A stretch of 41,305 nt of DNA from Klebsiella pneumoniae (GTDB lineage Bacteria > Pseudomonadota > Gammaproteobacteria > Steroidobacterales > Steroidobacteraceae). A model generated the notes under the pieces. It had not been told where the DNA came from, did not search any database, and saw only the letters and a program-made list of their open reading frames with translations. The stretch's first letter is position 1. Every line of letters begins with the position of its first letter. The DNA is taken from assembly GCA_945860725.1 (NCBI GenBank), contig CAMAQZ010000012.1, positions 1 to 41,305 of the forward strand, given 5' to 3'. Shown here piece after piece: positions 14,663 through 23,424 of the stretch. Both the position numbers and the translations under genes were made by a program.

Positions 14663-16477
14663 ATGTCCCGAGCCGCCTCGACCTGCCCCGTGCTGCTCGC
14701 CCTCGTCGCCCTGCTCTGGCCGGCGGCACGGGCGGACATCGACATCCAAGTCAGCGGTGTCGACGAGAACATCCGGCGCAATGTGCTCGTGTTCCTCAGC
14801 CTTGAGCGCTACAAGACGCGCGATGATCTCGACGAAGCGCTGATCGGTCGACTCGGTGAGCGCGCTGAGCGCGAGGCGGCTTCAGCACTGCGACCGTTCG
14901 GCTACTACACCCCGCAAGTGCGCGCCGAAGTCGTCCGCACGGCACCGGGCGAATGGCGAGCGCGTATCGCCATCGAGCCGGGCGAACCGGTGCGCCTCGA
15001 AGAGGTCCGGGTCGAGATCAGCGGCGCAGGGCTCGAGCATCCCGCGTTCCGGACGCTGCTCGATGAGCTGCCACTGCGTCGCGGTGAGCGCCTCAGCCAT
15101 GCGGCCTACGATGGGGTAAAAGGTGAACTGCAGCGTCTGGCAGCCACCCTCGGCTACGCCGAGGCGCGCCTGTCGGCCAACGAGATGCTGGTGGACCTCG
15201 AGAGCCGCACGGCACGCATCCACCTCGCGATGGAGACCGGACCTCGGTACTCGTTCGGTCCCACCACCATCACGCAACGCTCGCTCGACGAAGACCTGCT
15301 GCGTCGTTACCTGCGCTTCCGCGAGTCCGCTCCCTACGATGCCACCGAACTGCTGCGCAGCCAGTTCGCGCTCGATGACAGCCAGTATTTTTCGACAGTA
15401 GAGGTCATCGCGGGTGAACCCGACCGTTCGACCCTGCTGATCCCAGTATCCGTGCTCGCCGAACCGAACCGCCGCAACCGCTATTCGGCCGGTGTCGGAT
15501 ACGCGACCGACAGCAAGGCGCGCGGCACGCTCAGCTGGGAGAACCGACGCTTCAACGACAGCGGTCACCGGATGCGTGCCGAACTCAAAGCTGCGCAGAT
15601 CGAGCAATCCTTCGAGGCACGCTATGTGATCCCCATCGGCGACCCGGCGCTCGAAAAACTGTCTTTCGAGGCCCGCTGGGCGCGCGACGACCGCGGCGAT
15701 CTCGAGACGCGCACGCTGCGGTTCCAGCCGTCCGTCACGCATGTGCTCGGCGACTGGCAACGCGTGCTGTCCACGTCGCTCTCGAACATCGAGACGATCA
15801 CGGCGGCCACGCCCACGCAACCCTCCTCCCGTGACTCCAGTCTTTTGGTCATCCCGGCCATCAGCTACTCATCTATCCCGCGCGGTTACCTCGGCGAAGC
15901 GCTGTTCTCGCGGACGTTCAACGCCGAGCTGCGGGGCTCCGCACAGGCGCTCGGTGCGCCGACCGAGTTCCTGCAGTTGAAGGTCGAGGCCGAGAAGGTC
16001 TTCAATCCCGCGCCCCTGTGGAACGCCTACCTGCGCGGCCAGTTCGGCACCACCTGGGTGACCGAGACCGAGCAGCTCCCCGGTACCGAGCGTTTCTTCG
16101 CCGGTGGTGACCGCAGCGTGCGCGGCTTCGGCTATAACGACCTCTCACCGCTCGATGAGGGTGGCGCGAGGATCGGCGGTCGCCACCTCTTCACCGGTTC
16201 TGCAGAGCTGATCCGCGATCTGCCGCGCAACCTCGCCCTTGCGGTGTTCGTGGACGTCGGCAACGCCTTCGACGATTTCGGCGATCCACTCCAGTACTCG
16301 GCGGGTATCGGCCTGCGGTTCAGGCTGCCCGTGGTGAGCGTCGGCATCGACCTCGCGCAACCGCTGACCAACCCACGCTGCCGCAGCGCGACACCCGATC
16401 CACGCTGCCGGACAGAACCAGGCTTCGACGCTCTGGACGGACCACGATTGCACCTCAATTTCTCACCCAAGCTATGA
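14663..16477 (+). CDS. tamA: Translocation and assembly module outer-membrane protein TamA
   Basis: A 604-residue Omp85-family outer-membrane protein. Residues 1-24 are a signal peptide ending at ARADIDIQV. Residues about 25-265 contain three POTRA domains, the expected number for TamA (BamA has five); the remainder is a 16-strand barrel with the RGF motif of the inward loop in GGDRSVRGFGYNDLSP. The C-terminus LHLNFSPKL ends in the beta-signal style. TamA works with TamB to move proteins and phospholipids between membranes. The stop overlaps the tamB ATG as ATGA, so the pair is translated as a unit. Confidence 0.94.
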   Translation: MSRAASTCPVLLALVALLWPAARADIDIQVSGVDENIRRNVLVFLSLERYKTRDDLDEALIGRLGERAEREAASALRPFGYYTPQVRAEVVRTAPGEWRARIAIEPGEPVRLEEVRVEISGAGLEHPAFRTLLDELPLRRGERLSHAAYDGVKGELQRLAATLGYAEARLSANEMLVDLESRTARIHLAMETGPRYSFGPTTITQRSLDEDLLRRYLRFRESAPYDATELLRSQFALDDSQYFSTVEVIAGEPDRSTLLIPVSVLAEPNRRNRYSAGVGYATDSKARGTLSWENRRFNDSGHRMRAELKAAQIEQSFEARYVIPIGDPALEKLSFEARWARDDRGDLETRTLRFQPSVTHVLGDWQRVLSTSLSNIETITAATPTQPSSRDSSLLVIPAISYSSIPRGYLGEALFSRTFNAELRGSAQALGAPTEFLQLKVEAEKVFNPAPLWNAYLRGQFGTTWVTETEQLPGTERFFAGGDRSVRGFGYNDLSPLDEGGARIGGRHLFTGSAELIRDLPRNLALAVFVDVGNAFDDFGDPLQYSAGIGLRFRLPVVSVGIDLAQPLTNPRCRSATPDPRCRTEPGFDALDGPRLHLNFSPKL

Positions 16478-19400
16478 CCATAAAAGTCCGCTGGCTGTTG
16501 CTGCCGATCGTGCTGCTGACGCTGACAGCGCTCGCCGCGCTCGCGGCGTTGGTCACCGTGATGCACTCGGAATCCGCGCTGCAGTTCATCGTGCGACAGC
16601 TGCCTGAGCGCTTCGGCAGCATCGAGCGCTTGGCGGTGAAGGACGTCAGCGGCACGCTCGCCAGCGGCGTGCGTATCGGCAGTCTGGAGGTCGAGCACGA
16701 CCTCGTCGGCATCCGGGTCACTGGGTTGACGTTCCGCGTCGCGCCGCTGCCGCTCGTCTGGCAATCCATCGAGGTGCGCGGTTTCGACCTCCAGGAACTG
16801 CGCATCGAGCAACGGACGCGCGACCGGCCACCGCCCGAGCGCGCACCGCGGTTTCTGCCCGGCCTGCTCTCGATCTGGACCGAGGATGCGCGTGTCCGTC
16901 GCACCGTCATCCAACCGCTCGCAGGCAAACCCGTCGAGCTGCGCGATGCGATCTTGAGCGGCACGCTCTACGGCAAAGTGGCGCGGATCCGGCGAGCGGA
17001 ACTCGCCCTCGCAGACCTGCAGGTGACCGCCCAAGGTCTGCTCACCGCCGACGATCCGCTCGATCTCGAGGGCTCAGCCACTGCGACGTTCACACCTGCC
17101 CAAGGGCCGCGCTGGGTGATCGTAGCCAGCATCGACGGTGACCTCGCGGGCGCTGCCGTGACCGGCGGCATACGCGAGCCGTTCCGGGCGGAGTTGGATG
17201 ATGCGCAGTTCCGCACCCTCGCACCTTGGGGCCTCACCGGCGAGGCGATGATCAGCGACCTGGACATCGCCGAATTCGGCGGTGGCACGGCGCTCGGCAT
17301 CCTCTCGGGCAGACTGACGCTGCGGCTCGACCGGAACGCCTACCGCGCCCAAGGCAGACTCGACGCTGCAGGCCTCGGGATCGGCCCGGTCGATGTCGAC
17401 ATCGATGCGATGTACGCCGAACGCCAGATCGCGCTGCGCCGCGCCGACCTGCAACACCCCGCCTCCGGGATGCGCGCGAGCACAGCCGGCACCGTGACCC
17501 TCGCCAAGGGCGATACCCTCGTCGATCTGCAAGGACGTTGGCAGGGCTTCCGTTGGCCCCTCACGGGACAGTCGGCACCGATCGTCAAAAGTCCTGCCGG
17601 AGAGTTCACGCTGGCGGGCGGAGGCCCTTGGTCGGTCACGAGCAGCGGTCGGTTCGAGGTACCCAATCTACCGCCGATCGACGAGACGATCACCGGCACG
17701 CTGTATCCCGAAAGGTTCGTCATCACGCGCAGCGAGATCCGTGCGCTGGACGCGCGGGCTGCGCTGGTCGGGGAGGTCAGTTGGAAACCGCGCGAAGCGT
17801 GGCGGCTGAAGGGGCCGGTTCGGGGCCTCAACCTCGGCAAACTGCGTCCCGATCTGCCGGGGTCGCTCGATTTCACCGTCGATGCGCGCGGCACCGGTTT
17901 CGGTGCGACCCAGATCATTGACGTCGATGTCGCCGCTCTTTCCGGCCGACTGCGCGGCGCCGCAGCGAGAGGGCGCGGTAGTGTCCGCTACGCGCAGGAC
18001 GCGCTCACTTTCCGCAAGGTCGATGTCGCTGCAGGCGGCTTCCGTTTCGCGCTCGATGGCGAACTTTCCCCGCGCAGGCGCGATCTGCGGTTCCAGGTCG
18101 TGGCCACCGACCTCGGCGTGCTCGCTGCCGGCGCGCGCGGCAGCCTGCGTGCCGAAGGCACGCTGCGGGGTACGCCCGCCGCCATGTTGGTACGCGCGGC
18201 AGTGGCCGGCCGAAATCTCGACTATCAGGGGATCCGCGCCAGTACGCTCGAAGCGGACATCGATGTCGATCCGACCGGCGATCGCAACCGGCCGGCGCGC
18301 GCCAGTATCGTGGCACGCGATATCGAGGCCTACGGACAGGCATTCAAGGCACTGCGCTTCAGTCTGAACGGGCCGGTCGGCAACCATTCGCTCGCACTCG
18401 ATCTCGATGGGGAGAGCCTCGCGCTCGAAGCCCACGGTACCGGTCGCATTGAAGGCGATCGTTGGCGTCAATCCTGGGATGGAGCCGATGTCGATCTGCC
18501 GGCTGACATCACCTTGACCCTCAGTTCACCGCTGGCGTTGTCGTTGTCCCCGGGTCGCATCGAGGCAGAACCTTTCTGCATGCGCAGCCGCGACAGCCGA
18601 CGCTGGGGACAGGCCGTGACGCTATGCGCCGAAGGCGGTCTAGATCCCGCCGGTTGGCGCGCCAAAGGGAAGATCGATGGACTGCCTCTGGCGAGCCTGC
18701 TCGAAACGCCTTCGCCGAAGGCCAGTTACACAGGTCGCATGGACGCCACGGTCGATCTGCGCGGCAGCGACAAAGGTCCGCCGCTCGGTACGCTGCGCGT
18801 GGAGCTCGAAGACGCTGCGCTGCGGTGGCGCCGCGCGGGAGCGAAAGAGGACCTGATGGCGCTCGGAACCGGTCTGCTCACGGCTGAATCGACTGCAACC
18901 GGCGTGGAAGGTGCGCTGCAGCTCGCGGCTGGCGAACGCGGTAGCGTCGTAGGCACGCTGCAGATGACCCATGTTGCCGGGGACTGGCGTGCGACGCCGC
19001 TGCGCGCCACGCTCAAGGCCGACTCCACCGCGCTCGTGCTGCTGCACCTGTATGTGCCCGAGATCGATCGCGCCGCAGGCGACCTGTCCCTGGATCTCGT
19101 CATCGGCGGCACCCTCGGTGCGCCGCTCGTCAACGGCGTCGCGCGGCTTGCACGCGGCGAGCTCGACTTCTACCAGGTCAACCTCGCACTGCGCGACCTC
19201 ACGGCCGAAGCCCGCCTCATTGATAACGGCTTCGTGTTGAAATCTTCGGGCCGCGCGGGTGAAGGTCGTATCGCGGCCGACGCGGAGCTCGTCTGGCGCG
19301 ATCGCGAACCGTACGGCGAGCTCAGCGTCAAGGGCGATGACCTGTTGGTAACGGATGTCCCGGAAGCGCGCATCACGGCCTCGCCCGACCTGCAGTTCCG

Positions 19401-20241
19401 GGTCGCGGGCCGCGACCTCTCGGCCACCGGCGTGGTCCGCATCCCCTATGCGCGCCTAGTGCCCGCCGATCTCACGGGTGCTGTTCTATCCTCCGCAGAC
19501 GAGGTGCTCGTCGGCGAGGAGCCTGTCGATCCCGGCAGCAGCTTCCGAGTCTCGAGCAACATCCGCTTGGTCCTCGGTGACAAGGTCACCCTCGACTCGT
19601 TCGGCTTGAGCGGGCGGCTGGCAGGCACACTCAATGTCATCACCCAGCCCGACGGCAACAGCCGCGGCTCAGGGGAGCTCGGCGTCGCCGAGGGGAAGTA
19701 TGCGGCGCTCGGCCGCCGTCTCGACATCGAGCGCGGTCGGCTGGTCTTCACCGGCGGCGCGCTCAACGACCCGGGCGTCGATATCCGTGCGACCAAAGAA
19801 TTCCCGGAAGTGAAGGCCGGCGTGAATGTCCGCGGTACGCTGCGCGCACCACGCATGACCTTCTTCGCTGAACCGTCGCTGCCGCAGTCACAGATCGTCT
19901 CGTTGTTGTTGGCGGGTGGCACGTTCGACAGTGCGCAAGGCGATGCGGCGAGCGCCGGCCGCAGCGCCCTGATCGCACAGGGCGGCGCGATCCTCGCCCA
20001 GCAGCTCGGCCAACGCATCGGCATCGAGGATGTCGGCATCGAGCAGAACCTCGCCAACGAGGCCTCGCTGGTGCTCGGTAAGTACCTCTCACCGAGGCTC
20101 TATGTCAGCTATGGCATCTCGCTCGCCGAGGCGATCAACACCTTGAAGATGCGTTACACCATCAACGACCGCTGGACCATCAAGACCGAAGCCGGCAAGG
20201 AAGTCAGCGCGGACATCGTCTACACCGTCGAGAAGGACTGA
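16474..20241 (+). CDS. tamB: Translocation and assembly module inner-membrane protein TamB
   Basis: A 1255-residue AsmA-like/DUF490 protein. A single N-terminal transmembrane helix (about 5-32) anchors it in the inner membrane; the rest should form a long hydrophobic-grooved beta-taco/beta-solenoid spanning the periplasm to TamA. The conserved C-terminal domain (about the last 330 residues) is clear: DKVTLDSFGLSGRLAGTL, YAALGRRLDIERGRLVFTGG, DPGVDIRATKEFPEVKAGV, GTLRAPRMTFF, SQIVSLLLAGG, then an ending SPRLYVSYGISLAEAINTLKMRYTIN. Length agrees with E. coli TamB (1259). Coupled to tamA by ATGA overlap. Confidence 0.94.
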   Translation: MTIKVRWLLLPIVLLTLTALAALAALVTVMHSESALQFIVRQLPERFGSIERLAVKDVSGTLASGVRIGSLEVEHDLVGIRVTGLTFRVAPLPLVWQSIEVRGFDLQELRIEQRTRDRPPPERAPRFLPGLLSIWTEDARVRRTVIQPLAGKPVELRDAILSGTLYGKVARIRRAELALADLQVTAQGLLTADDPLDLEGSATATFTPAQGPRWVIVASIDGDLAGAAVTGGIREPFRAELDDAQFRTLAPWGLTGEAMISDLDIAEFGGGTALGILSGRLTLRLDRNAYRAQGRLDAAGLGIGPVDVDIDAMYAERQIALRRADLQHPASGMRASTAGTVTLAKGDTLVDLQGRWQGFRWPLTGQSAPIVKSPAGEFTLAGGGPWSVTSSGRFEVPNLPPIDETITGTLYPERFVITRSEIRALDARAALVGEVSWKPREAWRLKGPVRGLNLGKLRPDLPGSLDFTVDARGTGFGATQIIDVDVAALSGRLRGAAARGRGSVRYAQDALTFRKVDVAAGGFRFALDGELSPRRRDLRFQVVATDLGVLAAGARGSLRAEGTLRGTPAAMLVRAAVAGRNLDYQGIRASTLEADIDVDPTGDRNRPARASIVARDIEAYGQAFKALRFSLNGPVGNHSLALDLDGESLALEAHGTGRIEGDRWRQSWDGADVDLPADITLTLSSPLALSLSPGRIEAEPFCMRSRDSRRWGQAVTLCAEGGLDPAGWRAKGKIDGLPLASLLETPSPKASYTGRMDATVDLRGSDKGPPLGTLRVELEDAALRWRRAGAKEDLMALGTGLLTAESTATGVEGALQLAAGERGSVVGTLQMTHVAGDWRATPLRATLKADSTALVLLHLYVPEIDRAAGDLSLDLVIGGTLGAPLVNGVARLARGELDFYQVNLALRDLTAEARLIDNGFVLKSSGRAGEGRIAADAELVWRDREPYGELSVKGDDLLVTDVPEARITASPDLQFRVAGRDLSATGVVRIPYARLVPADLTGAVLSSADEVLVGEEPVDPGSSFRVSSNIRLVLGDKVTLDSFGLSGRLAGTLNVITQPDGNSRGSGELGVAEGKYAALGRRLDIERGRLVFTGGALNDPGVDIRATKEFPEVKAGVNVRGTLRAPRMTFFAEPSLPQSQIVSLLLAGGTFDSAQGDAASAGRSALIAQGGAILAQQLGQRIGIEDVGIEQNLANEASLVLGKYLSPRLYVSYGISLAEAINTLKMRYTINDRWTIKTEAGKEVSADIVYTVEKD

Positions 20242-20296
20242 CCCCCACCGCCGGCGCACCACCCGCCCCGGCGCACCACCTACCTTGGCCGCAGGC

Positions 20297-20302
20297 TACA
20301 CT
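20297..20302 (+). promoter_or_regulatory. -10 element (TACACT) upstream of the leaderless upstream ORF
   Basis: TACACT ends 7 nt before the ATG at 20310, the same spacing as at the GDPD, EamA and argS starts here. The region before it is a weakly structured GC-rich stretch after tamB, and no Shine-Dalgarno at proper distance is present (GGAGG abuts the ATG). Confidence 0.45.
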
Positions 20303-20309
20303 GCGGAGG

Positions 20310-20408
20310 ATGTCCCGGACCCGGCTCAACCAGACTCTGCCGGCAGCGCCCGCGCTGCGGTGGGTTGCATGCGACCTGTCCGCGGCCCAACCGACGCTGG
20401 CAAGATGA
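20310..20408 (+). CDS. Possible 32-aa upstream ORF coupled to the flavodoxin-like gene
   Basis: An ATG placed exactly where a leaderless transcript from the TACACT element would begin opens a 32-codon frame (MSRTRLNQTLPAAPALRWV then continuing to AQPTLAR). Its TGA overlaps the ATG at 20405 of the flavodoxin-like gene as ATGA. It has no recognised domain. Either it is a true small protein or leader that allows reinitiation on the reductase, or an accident of GC-rich coding frames. It is too short to be judged by composition. Confidence 0.35.
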   Translation: MSRTRLNQTLPAAPALRWVACDLSAAQPTLAR

Positions 20409-20923
20409 TCGGGCCCGTGCGCATCCTCTTGGTCTACGGCGGCCAGCCGAGCGGTCGCACCGAACAGCTTCGCCGCGAGGTCGTCGCGGGCATCGCCTCG
20501 GCTGCGCGAGCCGACGACGATGGCGCAGCCGACGCGCCAGGCGCGGAGCCAGGCACGATGTATGAACTGCGTGAACGGCACGCGCTCCTCGCCACGACCG
20601 ATGACCTGTTGTGGGCCCAAGGCCTATTGCTCGGGACGCCCGAGCACTTCGGCTACATGTCGGGTGCCCTCAAGGATTTCTTCGACCGCAGCTTCTATCC
20701 GGCGGAAGCGCGCACGGCCGGTCTGCCGTACGGACTGTTTGTCAGCGCAGGCAACGACGGGCGCGGCACGATCACCGCCGTGGAGCGGATCGTCGCGGGC
20801 TATGGCTGGCGGGCGATCGCGGATCCGGTGCGGGTCGTGGGCGACCCGGACGAGGCCGCGCTCGCGCGTTGCCGGGAACTCGGCGGTACGCTCATCGCCG
20901 GCTTAGCGGCCGGGATCTTCTAG
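20405..20923 (+). CDS. Flavodoxin-like NAD(P)H-dependent FMN reductase family protein
   Basis: A 172-residue flavodoxin-fold protein. Marks: an early beta strand RILLVYGGQPSGRTEQ with the phosphate-binding loop, the GLLLGTPEHFGYMSGALKDFFDR segment that matches the FMN-ring region of the NADPH-dependent FMN reductase family, then a late strand YGLFVSAGND. The family carries FMN and reduces flavins, quinones or azo compounds. The start is ATG at 20405, directly followed by the first strand and overlapping the TGA of a short upstream ORF; an in-frame extension to 20285 has no family match. The stop TAG shares the palindrome CTAG with the stop of the convergent repeat-protein gene. Confidence 0.78.
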   Translation: MIGPVRILLVYGGQPSGRTEQLRREVVAGIASAARADDDGAADAPGAEPGTMYELRERHALLATTDDLLWAQGLLLGTPEHFGYMSGALKDFFDRSFYPAEARTAGLPYGLFVSAGNDGRGTITAVERIVAGYGWRAIADPVRVVGDPDEAALARCRELGGTLIAGLAAGIF

Positions 20924-21694
20924 CGTCCTAATGCGCGCTGCGCAGCCACATATCCCGGAGCCAGTTGCAGCGCCCGCTCGAAGAACTGCTGCTCGGTCTC
21001 GCGATCGCCTTCTTGGCGCTTGCAGCGACCCGCCCAAAAGTAAGATTCAGGCGCGCCCCAGCGGATGTTGCTCGCGAGCTCGTCCTTCCCAAAGGCGGTC
21101 GTCGCCTCGAGGAACCGCTCACAACCTTTTTCCTGATCGCCGAAGAATCCAGGACCGAACCAGTTCAAGAGGCCATCGACGAACAAAGCCCGCGGATTGC
21201 GCGGTGCCAGTCTCAGCGATGTTTCGATGTCGTCGGCAGCGTCCGAACGATGCATGAACCAGCTGATGAGGCTGGCGTACCCGAGATAGACATGACAGGC
21301 GGCGCGCAGGTTATAGGCGTCACTGAAGCGGGGGCTCGCCTTGAGTGCAGTGTCCAACGCGTCGACACAGGCTTCGCCAGCCGCCTCGACCTGTTCGTCA
21401 CGCCGCGCATCCCGCGCCAAGTGCATCACGCGGAACTTCACGAAAGCGTAGCCGTAGAGCGTCATCGGATCCTGCGATCGCTGCCAACTGCGGGTATCAG
21501 CCTCGATGCGCTCGAGCGCAGCAGTGTCGGCTCTGAGGAAGGCCTGCTGGGCGCGGTTGCCCATCGAGACGACCGTGCTGCCGTCGAGGGACTGGGCGAG
21601 AAGGGGGGGCGATGCCTACCGACCCGAGCGCCAGAGTTACGATGACCGGCAAGACCGGGATACGGCGGCGGATAGCGGGGAGAAAGTGCTTCAT
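20920..21694 (-). pseudogene. TPR-like secreted repeat protein, frameshifted at a poly-G run
   Basis: On the minus strand a 3' frame (start-like ATG at 21564, MGNRAQQAF) and a 5' frame (ATG at 21694, MKHFLPAIRRRIPV) meet at a run of seven G (plus strand 21603-21609). Removing one G joins them into one 257-residue protein with a signal peptide and a cleavage site at LLAQ-S. That joined protein aligns along its full length with the neighbouring gene (AQ-S/AQ-S, DTAALERI/DDAAFARV, WGAPESYFWAGRC/WGAAEAHFWVGRC, YVAAQRALGR/FVAARRALGR). The helices fit TPR-like repeats. The shift may be a sequencing error, a real pseudogene, or phase variation. It ends at 20920, sharing its stop with the flavodoxin-like gene. 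Confidence 0.75.
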
Positions 21695-21783
21695 ATGGCA
21701 CGCCTTGCTTGGCACAAAAGTAGCTGGCGTGACTTTACATTAACCTTTTCCTGGGCAGCGCATCAAAGATTCGGCGTCCGGCA

Positions 21784-22548
21784 CTAGCGCCCGAGCGCCC
21801 GGCGGGCTGCGACGAACCCCGGCGCCCAAGCCAGCGACCGCTCGAAGGACCGCTGGGCAGCGGCGGCGTCTCCGGCTTCACGGGCGCAGCGGCCGACCCA
21901 GAAGTGGGCTTCCGCAGCGCCCCACTCGATCCCGCCGGCACCTCCCGCCCCGCCCGGTCCCGCGGCGTCGAAAGCGGCGGCGGCGGCCCGAAAGCGCGCG
22001 CAAGCTTTGCCCTTGTCTCCCCCGACGAAGGCCGGGCGGAAATAGAGCCCGAAGCCCTCGACCAATTGCACCCGCGGATGACCGGGCTCGAGCGCGAGTG
22101 CCGCCTCGATCGCCTTGCCGCTCCGTGACCCGTTGCGGATCGCGCCGAGGCCACCGAGGTTGGCGAGATAGCCATGGCAGGCTGACTGGAGAGCGAACGC
22201 CTCGACGAACTTCGGGTCAGCGTTCACCGCTGCCGCAGTCGCGGCGACACAGGCAGCACCGGCGCGCTCGGCGTCCTTGTCACGCTTGGCGCCGATCGCG
22301 CGCTGCAGCACGCGGAACTGCACGAAGCCTAGGGTATAGCGGTCCTGCGCCTTGGACGATGTGGCGAGGCCGGTCGCAGAGGCTGCGACGCGGGCGAAGG
22401 CTGCATCGTCGCCAGCGAACCACGCGCTCTGTGCCTGCGCGGCGATCGCGCCACGATCAGCCGCTTGGACGATCGACTGGGCGGCCGCGGGCATCGCCAC
22501 TGCAGCAAGCAGGCTCAAGCCGATCCACGGGACGACAGCCCTCATCAT
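21784..22548 (-). CDS. Secreted TPR-like repeat protein (paralog)
   Basis: A 254-residue protein with a signal peptide (residues 1-23, cleavage near AAAQS) and TPR-like helical repeats, most clearly PRVQLVEGFGLYF, GGIEWGAAEAHFWVGRCAREAGDAAAAQRSFERSLAWAPGFVAARRALG. A Gly/Ala-rich loop (GPGGAGGAGG) separates repeats. It is the intact copy of a tandem pair with the frameshifted gene next to it, and 27 bp follow the stop of the methyltransferase-like gene, so all three probably share a transcript. No Shine-Dalgarno is obvious before the two adjacent ATGs (22548 and 22545). Function unknown; TPR proteins of this kind mediate protein contacts in the periplasm. Confidence 0.75.
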   Translation of the reverse strand: MMRAVVPWIGLSLLAAVAMPAAAQSIVQAADRGAIAAQAQSAWFAGDDAAFARVAASATGLATSSKAQDRYTLGFVQFRVLQRAIGAKRDKDAERAGAACVAATAAAVNADPKFVEAFALQSACHGYLANLGGLGAIRNGSRSGKAIEAALALEPGHPRVQLVEGFGLYFRPAFVGGDKGKACARFRAAAAAFDAAGPGGAGGAGGIEWGAAEAHFWVGRCAREAGDAAAAQRSFERSLAWAPGFVAARRALGR

Positions 22549-22575: not shown

Positions 22576-23424
22576 TCACTTGGTGAAGCGCAGCGTCATG
22601 CGATCCGACTCGCCGATCGCGTCGTACTTGCTGCGGTCGAAAGTCGGGTCGGCGGGCTTGCCGGAACCGTAGGCCACCGTCGTCCGCGTGGGCGGCAGCG
22701 TCCACACGCCGAACGGATGGTCTGCGTTGTCCTTCGGGTTGGCGTTGATCTCGGACCGGGCGACGAGCCTGAGACCGGCGCGCTTCGCGGCATCGATCAC
22801 GAACTGCTCAGTGACATAGCCCGAGGCGCCCTTGTCTTCGGGCGTACCGGGCTTCGCTCGGTGCTGCTCCACAGCCAACGAGCCGCCCGGCTTGAGGGCG
22901 CGCGCGACCTGTGCGAAGTAACGATCGACCATCCCCTCTTGGCGCATCCAGCCGTGGATGCCGCGCGAGAGCAGGATGAAGTCGTGCTGGGACTCCGCGA
23001 GCGGGGGCGCCACCGGCCCCCAGTTCACGAGCTCGACCTTGCCATAGACCGATGCGTCGGCGTAACGCGCGGCAAAGGCGTCGCGGCCCTGACGGGCGGC
23101 AGGCGTGAGGTTCGGGTTGGTGAGGTCGACCGAAGTCGCGGTGTAACGACCGCCGGTACGCGCCGCGTACGGCGCCAGGATCTGCGTCCACCAGCCACCG
23201 CCGGGCTGCACCTCGAGGATGGAGGCACCGGGCTTCAGGCCCCAGAATGCCAAGGACGGACCAGGTCGCCGCTCGGCATCGCGCTCTTTCTGCTCAGCGC
23301 TGCGCGAGCTGCTCGCGAGTACGGAATCGATCGCGGCACGCGACGGCTCAGGCTCACCCGTGGTCGCACACCCGGTCAGGAAAAAGGACAGCGCAACGAG
23401 CGCCAGGGGACGGATTGCGGACAT
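22576..23424 (-). CDS. SAM-dependent methyltransferase-like lipoprotein (COG4798-type)
   Basis: A 282-residue exported lipoprotein. The signal peptide ends in a lipobox FLTGC with Cys at residue 19. The fold is a class I SAM methyltransferase: motif I ILEVQPGGGWWTQILAPY, then a QHDFILLSRGIHGW strand-helix segment and KPGGSLAVEQHRAKPG. This matches the predicted methyltransferase family COG4798. A periplasmic methyltransferase would lack SAM, so the fold may have been recruited for another role. The start is ATG at 23424, with AAGGAG 7 nt upstream; a longer frame to 23568 has no signal-like sequence and is rejected. It diverges from the GNAT gene (142 bp gap) and leads the run with the two TPR-like genes. 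Confidence 0.8.
   Translation of the reverse strand: MSAIRPLALVALSFFLTGCATTGEPEPSRAAIDSVLASSSRSAEQKERDAERRPGPSLAFWGLKPGASILEVQPGGGWWTQILAPYAARTGGRYTATSVDLTNPNLTPAARQGRDAFAARYADASVYGKVELVNWGPVAPPLAESQHDFILLSRGIHGWMRQEGMVDRYFAQVARALKPGGSLAVEQHRAKPGTPEDKGASGYVTEQFVIDAAKRAGLRLVARSEINANPKDNADHPFGVWTLPPTRTTVAYGSGKPADPTFDRSKYDAIGESDRMTLRFTK

Follow-up and report, generated by a model that had tools for sequence, protein, structure and literature searches.

Nascent pseudogenes in tandem duplicates appear as one intact copy beside one broken, faster-evolving copy. The locus described here resembles them in that an intact and a broken gene lie side by side and the broken one evolves faster. It differs in that we find one lesion only, with no other decay of the frame in the body of the gene. 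In our preferred explanation the broken gene is a dispensable tandem duplicate with a nascent loss of function, and we hold this reading to be evenly poised between right and wrong.

The lesion lies at a short homopolymer, and the locus therefore has to be compared also with homopolymeric contingency loci, which have been studied mainly in pathogens according to a survey of frame transitions (PMC3711429). In Bordetella, C/G tracts of more than 8 bases are reported to exceed expectation, and the six-base tract of bvgS is named as a shorter variable one; nine tracts were typed there in 90 strains (PMC1891110). The Bordetella tracts (bvgS C6, bapC, tcfA) resemble the tract described here in being C/G tracts of a Gram-negative bacterium with surface-protein genes among their hosts, as described in that study (PMC1891110). 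The difference is that the run of seven C in our locus has a length expected by chance and is known from one assembly. The tract GGGGGGG of glpK of Mycobacterium tuberculosis is likewise a seven-base coding G/C tract at which a one-base change breaks the frame. In the report on glpK, however, the seven-base form is the working one and many isolates were typed, whereas in our locus seven bases break the frame, as seen in one assembly (PMC6667613).

Two reading frames at a run of seven C

The window, i.e., the whole stretch of 41,305 nucleotides that was analyzed, carries on its minus strand a reading frame with a signal peptide and a reading frame for a TPR-like protein which meet at a run of seven C, seen as seven G on the forward strand (Table 1). 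The initial annotation had claimed that the signal peptide is split from the TPR-like body at this run, and run and frames were indeed found at the positions and in the arrangement claimed. The 5′ frame begins with the ATG at 21694, reaches the run after about 28 codons, reads past it and terminates at the stop codon 21499-21497, giving 65 codons in total. Its start is positively charged and then hydrophobic, the highest mean hydropathy among the 14-residue windows printed being 2.1. The 3′ frame is offset by one base from the 5′ frame and ends at 20920. Upstream it is shut by a TAG at 21618-21616, and between this stop codon and the tract the frame contains no ATG, GTG or TTG. An alternative start further upstream was therefore rejected, and the earliest start codon of the 3′ frame is the ATG at 21564.

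Table 1. Features of the split gene and its surroundings (positions in the window)
Feature	Position	Strand	Remarks
NADPH-dependent FMN reductase ORF	20285..20923	+	convergent (tail to tail) with the broken copy
Final 51 bases of the broken copy	20920..20970	-	similar tail on the single copy of G020 and at a contig end of G007
3′ frame, TPR-like body (P0001)	20920..21600	-	226 residues; no internal stops; frame open from 21615
Body starting from ATG 21564	20920..21564	-	214 aa; would be without signal peptide
5′ frame	21497..21694	-	65 aa; signal-peptide-like start, then out-of-frame codons and stop
G7 run (C7 on the coding, minus strand)	21603..21609	.	frame junction
Intact tandem paralogue (P0003)	21784..22548	-	with signal peptide; conserved copy within the genus
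Methyltransferase-domain gene upstream of the pair	22576..23424	-	lipoprotein-like start (by eye)

The cleavage site LLAQ-S which had been proposed for the 3′ frame aligns, as judged by eye, with the ends of the signal peptides of the homologues, AQ being present in 14 of 17 copies. The proposed relationship to the neighbouring gene was borne out as well, this full-length neighbour being 42% identical to the broken gene. A frame broken also at other sites, which the initial annotation had named as the mark of a plain pseudogene, was not found: the body has no other break, and the homologue matches listed are free of internal stops. Measured against these intact homologues the frame is disrupted as in a pseudogene. 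The absence of any further stop or frameshift in the body, together with its preserved coding character, led us to reject a plain old pseudogene.

A consensus search of positions 21600-21900 revealed neither a promoter nor a terminator, and no RNA family reached the gathering score in the window. Beyond the FMN reductase ORF there is a row of a TamA-like gene (Omp85 with TamA POTRA) and a TamB gene (14663-20241), which adjoins this ORF and is ordinary.

G/C runs in the genome and the role of the tract

In the genome that contains the locus (2.15 Mb in 110 contigs) we counted 102 overlapping matches to G7 on both strands, which collapse to 81 distinct runs, with 65, 11 and 5 of them being seven, eight and nine bases long, respectively; these lengths account for all 102 matches. 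A poly-G of 14 was not present in this genome. According to a second-order model trained on the stretches of the genome that were read, about 88 runs of at least seven bases are expected, and for runs of at least eight bases the model expects about 17, with 16 observed. Because 81 runs were seen against about 88 expected, the C7 run itself is not unusual; such runs occur at chance level and without excess. Tracts longer or commoner than composition predicts, as they would accompany contingency loci, are thus not found here. The unusual point is the change of frame in a homologous gene at this run.

This frame change could be an error of the consensus, in which case the second copy would be intact in the organism and the assembly would miscount one base in the run. 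We rate this explanation as possible but rather improbable. It agrees with a frame which is otherwise intact and with the normal codon use of the body, as well as with the conserved ends of the protein and a fold which is predicted well in the models (see below). In addition, according to a large survey of frame transitions, singletons confirmed by homology should be sequencing errors and not real indels (PMC3711429); this expectation also counts against our preferred explanation. The other runs examined in the assembly point in the other direction: the best-scoring coding frame does not change across 11 of the 80 other runs of at least seven bases, both flanks scoring above 8 (a cut-off of our own). 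We also read eight loci with apparent frame changes, chosen for their score, and six of these broken-looking loci turned out to be gene junctions between two different Pfam families (L075, L091, L100, L105, L115 and L121). L138 is probably also a gene junction, having a match to DoxX on one side and no match on the other. At L148 (positions 1501-1518; G000:C108) two G7 runs lie four bases apart between two open frames without a Pfam match, and this is the only locus among the eight read that a gene junction did not explain.

An automatic frame scan of the 81 runs yielded 26 apparent frame changes, 26 strand changes and 29 runs within the same frame, and is too noisy to be used alone; a stricter scan left 64 of the 81 runs unclear. 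The C7 locus itself was not classed as a same-strand frame change by the automatic scan. A general miscounting of homopolymers in the assembly is unsupported by the runs examined, i.e., the eight loci read and the frame scan.

Phase variation had been raised by the initial annotation as well: slipped-strand mispairing at C7 would toggle the export of the paralogue, and the assembly would have caught the off state. One part of this proposal holds, namely that the homopolymer lies within a signal peptide, that the exported protein has an otherwise intact body, and that the length of the repeat sets the reading frame. Moreover, short tracts can vary, as reported for C6 of bvgS in B. pertussis (PMC1891110) and for G7 of glpK in M. 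tuberculosis (PMC6667613). The proposal is weakened, however, where the tract is compared with others. The runs of at least seven and at least eight bases are without excess, and in none of the 17 other copies (16 congeners and the neighbour, the fragmentary copies of G004 and G010 having been left out) does a G/C run of at least five bases occur within 150 bases around the signal-peptide border, so that the tract is not shared by the homologues. Furthermore, the gene is kept by no relative searched, and MutS and MutL domains are present in the genome. Beyond the place of the tract, nothing in this single assembly speaks for phase variation, which we therefore consider unlikely. A G7 run is present elsewhere in the copy of G020, where the frame is unbroken. 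The loss of mismatch repair as a cause was rejected on the grounds of the MutS and MutL domains.

It is also conceivable that the tract is decoded leakily, with tRNA-Pro slipping forward on CCC-C so that a little full-length exported protein is still made. The sequence CC[C/U]-[C/U] is described as prone to +1 slips, which in E. coli reach up to 1% when it is placed at codon two (PMC4519876). By eye, a slippery CCC-C is located at the junction, and a +1 slip, which is of the right sign for a programmed frameshift, leads the first frame into the second. However, the site shows no conservation in orthologues, as no orthologue of the broken copy was found and the tract is absent from the 17 other copies (0/17). 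There is also no stop codon next to the run, and with about 28 codons before it the tract is not at the start-proximal position which the same study describes as most prone to shifts (PMC4519876). We regard leaky decoding as very improbable.

Copies of the gene in related genomes

With the body of the broken copy as query, 94 of 217 genomes of the family gave a match at E <= 1e-8. Two matches were found only in the genome of the broken copy itself, and every other matching family genome had one. The intact neighbour as query matched 19 of 24 genomes of the genus, including its own, which again was the only one with two matches. The 18 of 23 other genus genomes which match do so once each, and all their copies resemble the intact neighbour more closely than the broken copy. 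The identity to the intact neighbour is 92% for G020, 89% for G007 and 55-65% for 15 of the 16 others, the exception being a fragment in G004 with 47%. Judged by these sequence comparisons, it is the intact neighbour that the genus has conserved. Five genus genomes were without a match; in one of them, G009, the contig begins near the FMN reductase gene and the absence is uninformative. An orthologue of the broken copy was not found in the genus or family genomes searched (217 genomes, E <= 1e-8). A scan of genome contigs with the body found one relative, L025, in a metagenome bin ("uncultured proteobacterium").

The gene neighbourhood is partly retained. A relative of the FMN reductase gene adjoins the single copy in 13 of the 16 congeners whose DNA extends far enough on that side, and was not found within 1.5 kb in G005, G011 and G019; G007 and G004 stand outside this count because their contigs end first.

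A second copy was not found in the close relatives G020 and G007. The ends of their genes, however, resemble the broken copy. The last 51 bases of the single copy of G020 match the broken copy at 43 of 51 positions and the neighbour at 34 of 51, whereas in the stretch before this tail 218 of 231 bases match the intact neighbour. This gene (L027; G020:C129) has the appearance of a hybrid whose body resembles the intact copy and whose tail resembles the broken one. Two contigs of G007 end exactly at the site of the tail, and the tail carried by one of them agrees with the broken copy at 44 of 50 bases and with the neighbour at 32 of 50. By eye the two ends (L044, at the low end of C5, and L072, at the high end of C31) share 2 bases only, and an overlap of 10 or more bases between them was not found. 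The two contig ends might reflect arrangements which coexist in the population.

From the sequences, the tails in G020 and G007 fit a collapse of the tandem pair, which would mean that the copy can be lost. They could equally be the tail of an ancestral single gene, with the genome of the broken copy having gained its additional copy by recombination at the tail. In the branching order G020 groups with the genome of the broken copy and G007 stands outside (97/89), which leans slightly toward a gain in this genome. If the copy was gained there, the argument from loss in the relatives is weaker.

Divergence, predicted fold and fate of the broken copy

In a tree of 35 sequences the broken copy is placed inside the genus on an end branch of 1.08, compared with a median of 0.21; its exact place is unsure and the fork is open. 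The broken copy retains 27 of 54 columns which are invariant in the genus, and five controls retain 55/59, 55/61, 56/66, 55/57 and 55/56, the close kin of two of these controls having been left out of the reference. The loss of these residues is uneven: 4 of 26 invariant columns are kept in the centre and 23 of 28 in the flanks (Fisher 1.6e-6, for columns counted by hand and with boundaries between centre and flanks chosen after looking). The codon score of the broken copy is ordinary (0.200, with 0.185 for the neighbour), and its G+C content of 0.633 is lower than that of the neighbour (0.718). Taken together, the pattern of loss and the normal codon use have the look of a scaffold that selection has maintained around a remodelled middle, and not of neutral rot. 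The clustered losses as such agree equally with a new function and with decay.

In a simulation of neutral change, the probability that a 226-codon frame stays open is 0.232 or 0.069 after 4% change and 0.058 or 0.003 after 8% change, the two values referring to an indel/substitution ratio of 0.03 or 0.1. This low survival implies that the frame has been held almost until now. Accordingly, the break must be young unless it is not real or not permanent.

Pfam detects the TPR-like character of the body only weakly (E 7.9e-05 to 0.094, all matches below the gathering scores), and a search of NCBIfam gave two weak matches far under the cut-off for the broken copy and none for the neighbour. The best of five structural models of the body, predicted from an alignment of three rows, has a pLDDT of 90.0 and a pTM of 0.88, the five models ranging in pLDDT from 66.3 to 90.0. 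It consists of 12 helices in an antiparallel array, and TPR or TPR-fold proteins are at the top of both fold searches made with it. Among the matches are the haemophore HusA (6bqs; Z 17.8, rmsd 3.5, 190 residues aligned), a bacterial sterol transporter (7t1s; Z 18.5, rmsd 3.8, 202 residues aligned) and a member of the TPAT family (8g52; Z 16.6, rmsd 3.7, 207 residues aligned), all three of which we take to be periplasmic TPR-fold ligand binders. The matches span nearly the whole body of the broken copy at an identity of 10-15%. The TPR domain of PTPIP51 (7cc7) scores with Z 18.7, which illustrates that helical repeats match widely. Because of these wide matches and the low identity, no function can be derived from the fold.

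In our preferred explanation, a nascent loss of function, the second copy of this tandem pair of exported TPR-like genes would have turned dispensable. This second copy would have diverged fast while still in frame, keeping its ends and losing most of the genus-fixed residues in its centre. A recent slip of one base at C7, in the last part of the signal peptide, would then have separated the export signal from the reading frame of the body, and in the assembled population the gene would yield only the 65-residue peptide. For this explanation we infer that the base is truly present in the organism and fixed, and that the protein is lost. On the other hand, the kept ends, the normal codon use and the confidently predicted fold point to a protein that had a use until very recently. 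If so, an error of the assembly or a switch fits at least as well as a loss of function.

The switch can be formulated more fully as a contingency locus in an uncultured bacterium. The C7 tract in the signal peptide would turn on and off the export of a second, refashioned periplasmic ligand-binding protein of the TPR fold, in which the scaffold has been kept and the central, possibly pocket-forming part has been changed; the collapse of the tandem pair would be a second route of loss in the relatives. We find this full scenario decidedly unlikely. If the switch were true, even short G/C tracts of ordinary length would have to be counted among the homopolymer contingency loci, here in an uncultured lineage, and screens based on tract length would miss such tracts.

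As a nascent loss-of-function allele, to return to our preferred explanation, the split gene would matter little and would represent a snapshot of a tandem duplicate being lost. A relative next to the genome with the broken copy may show the same loss by recombination. For the family itself, which has no name so far, the likeness of the predicted body to HusA, the sterol transporter and TPAT may serve as a functional lead.
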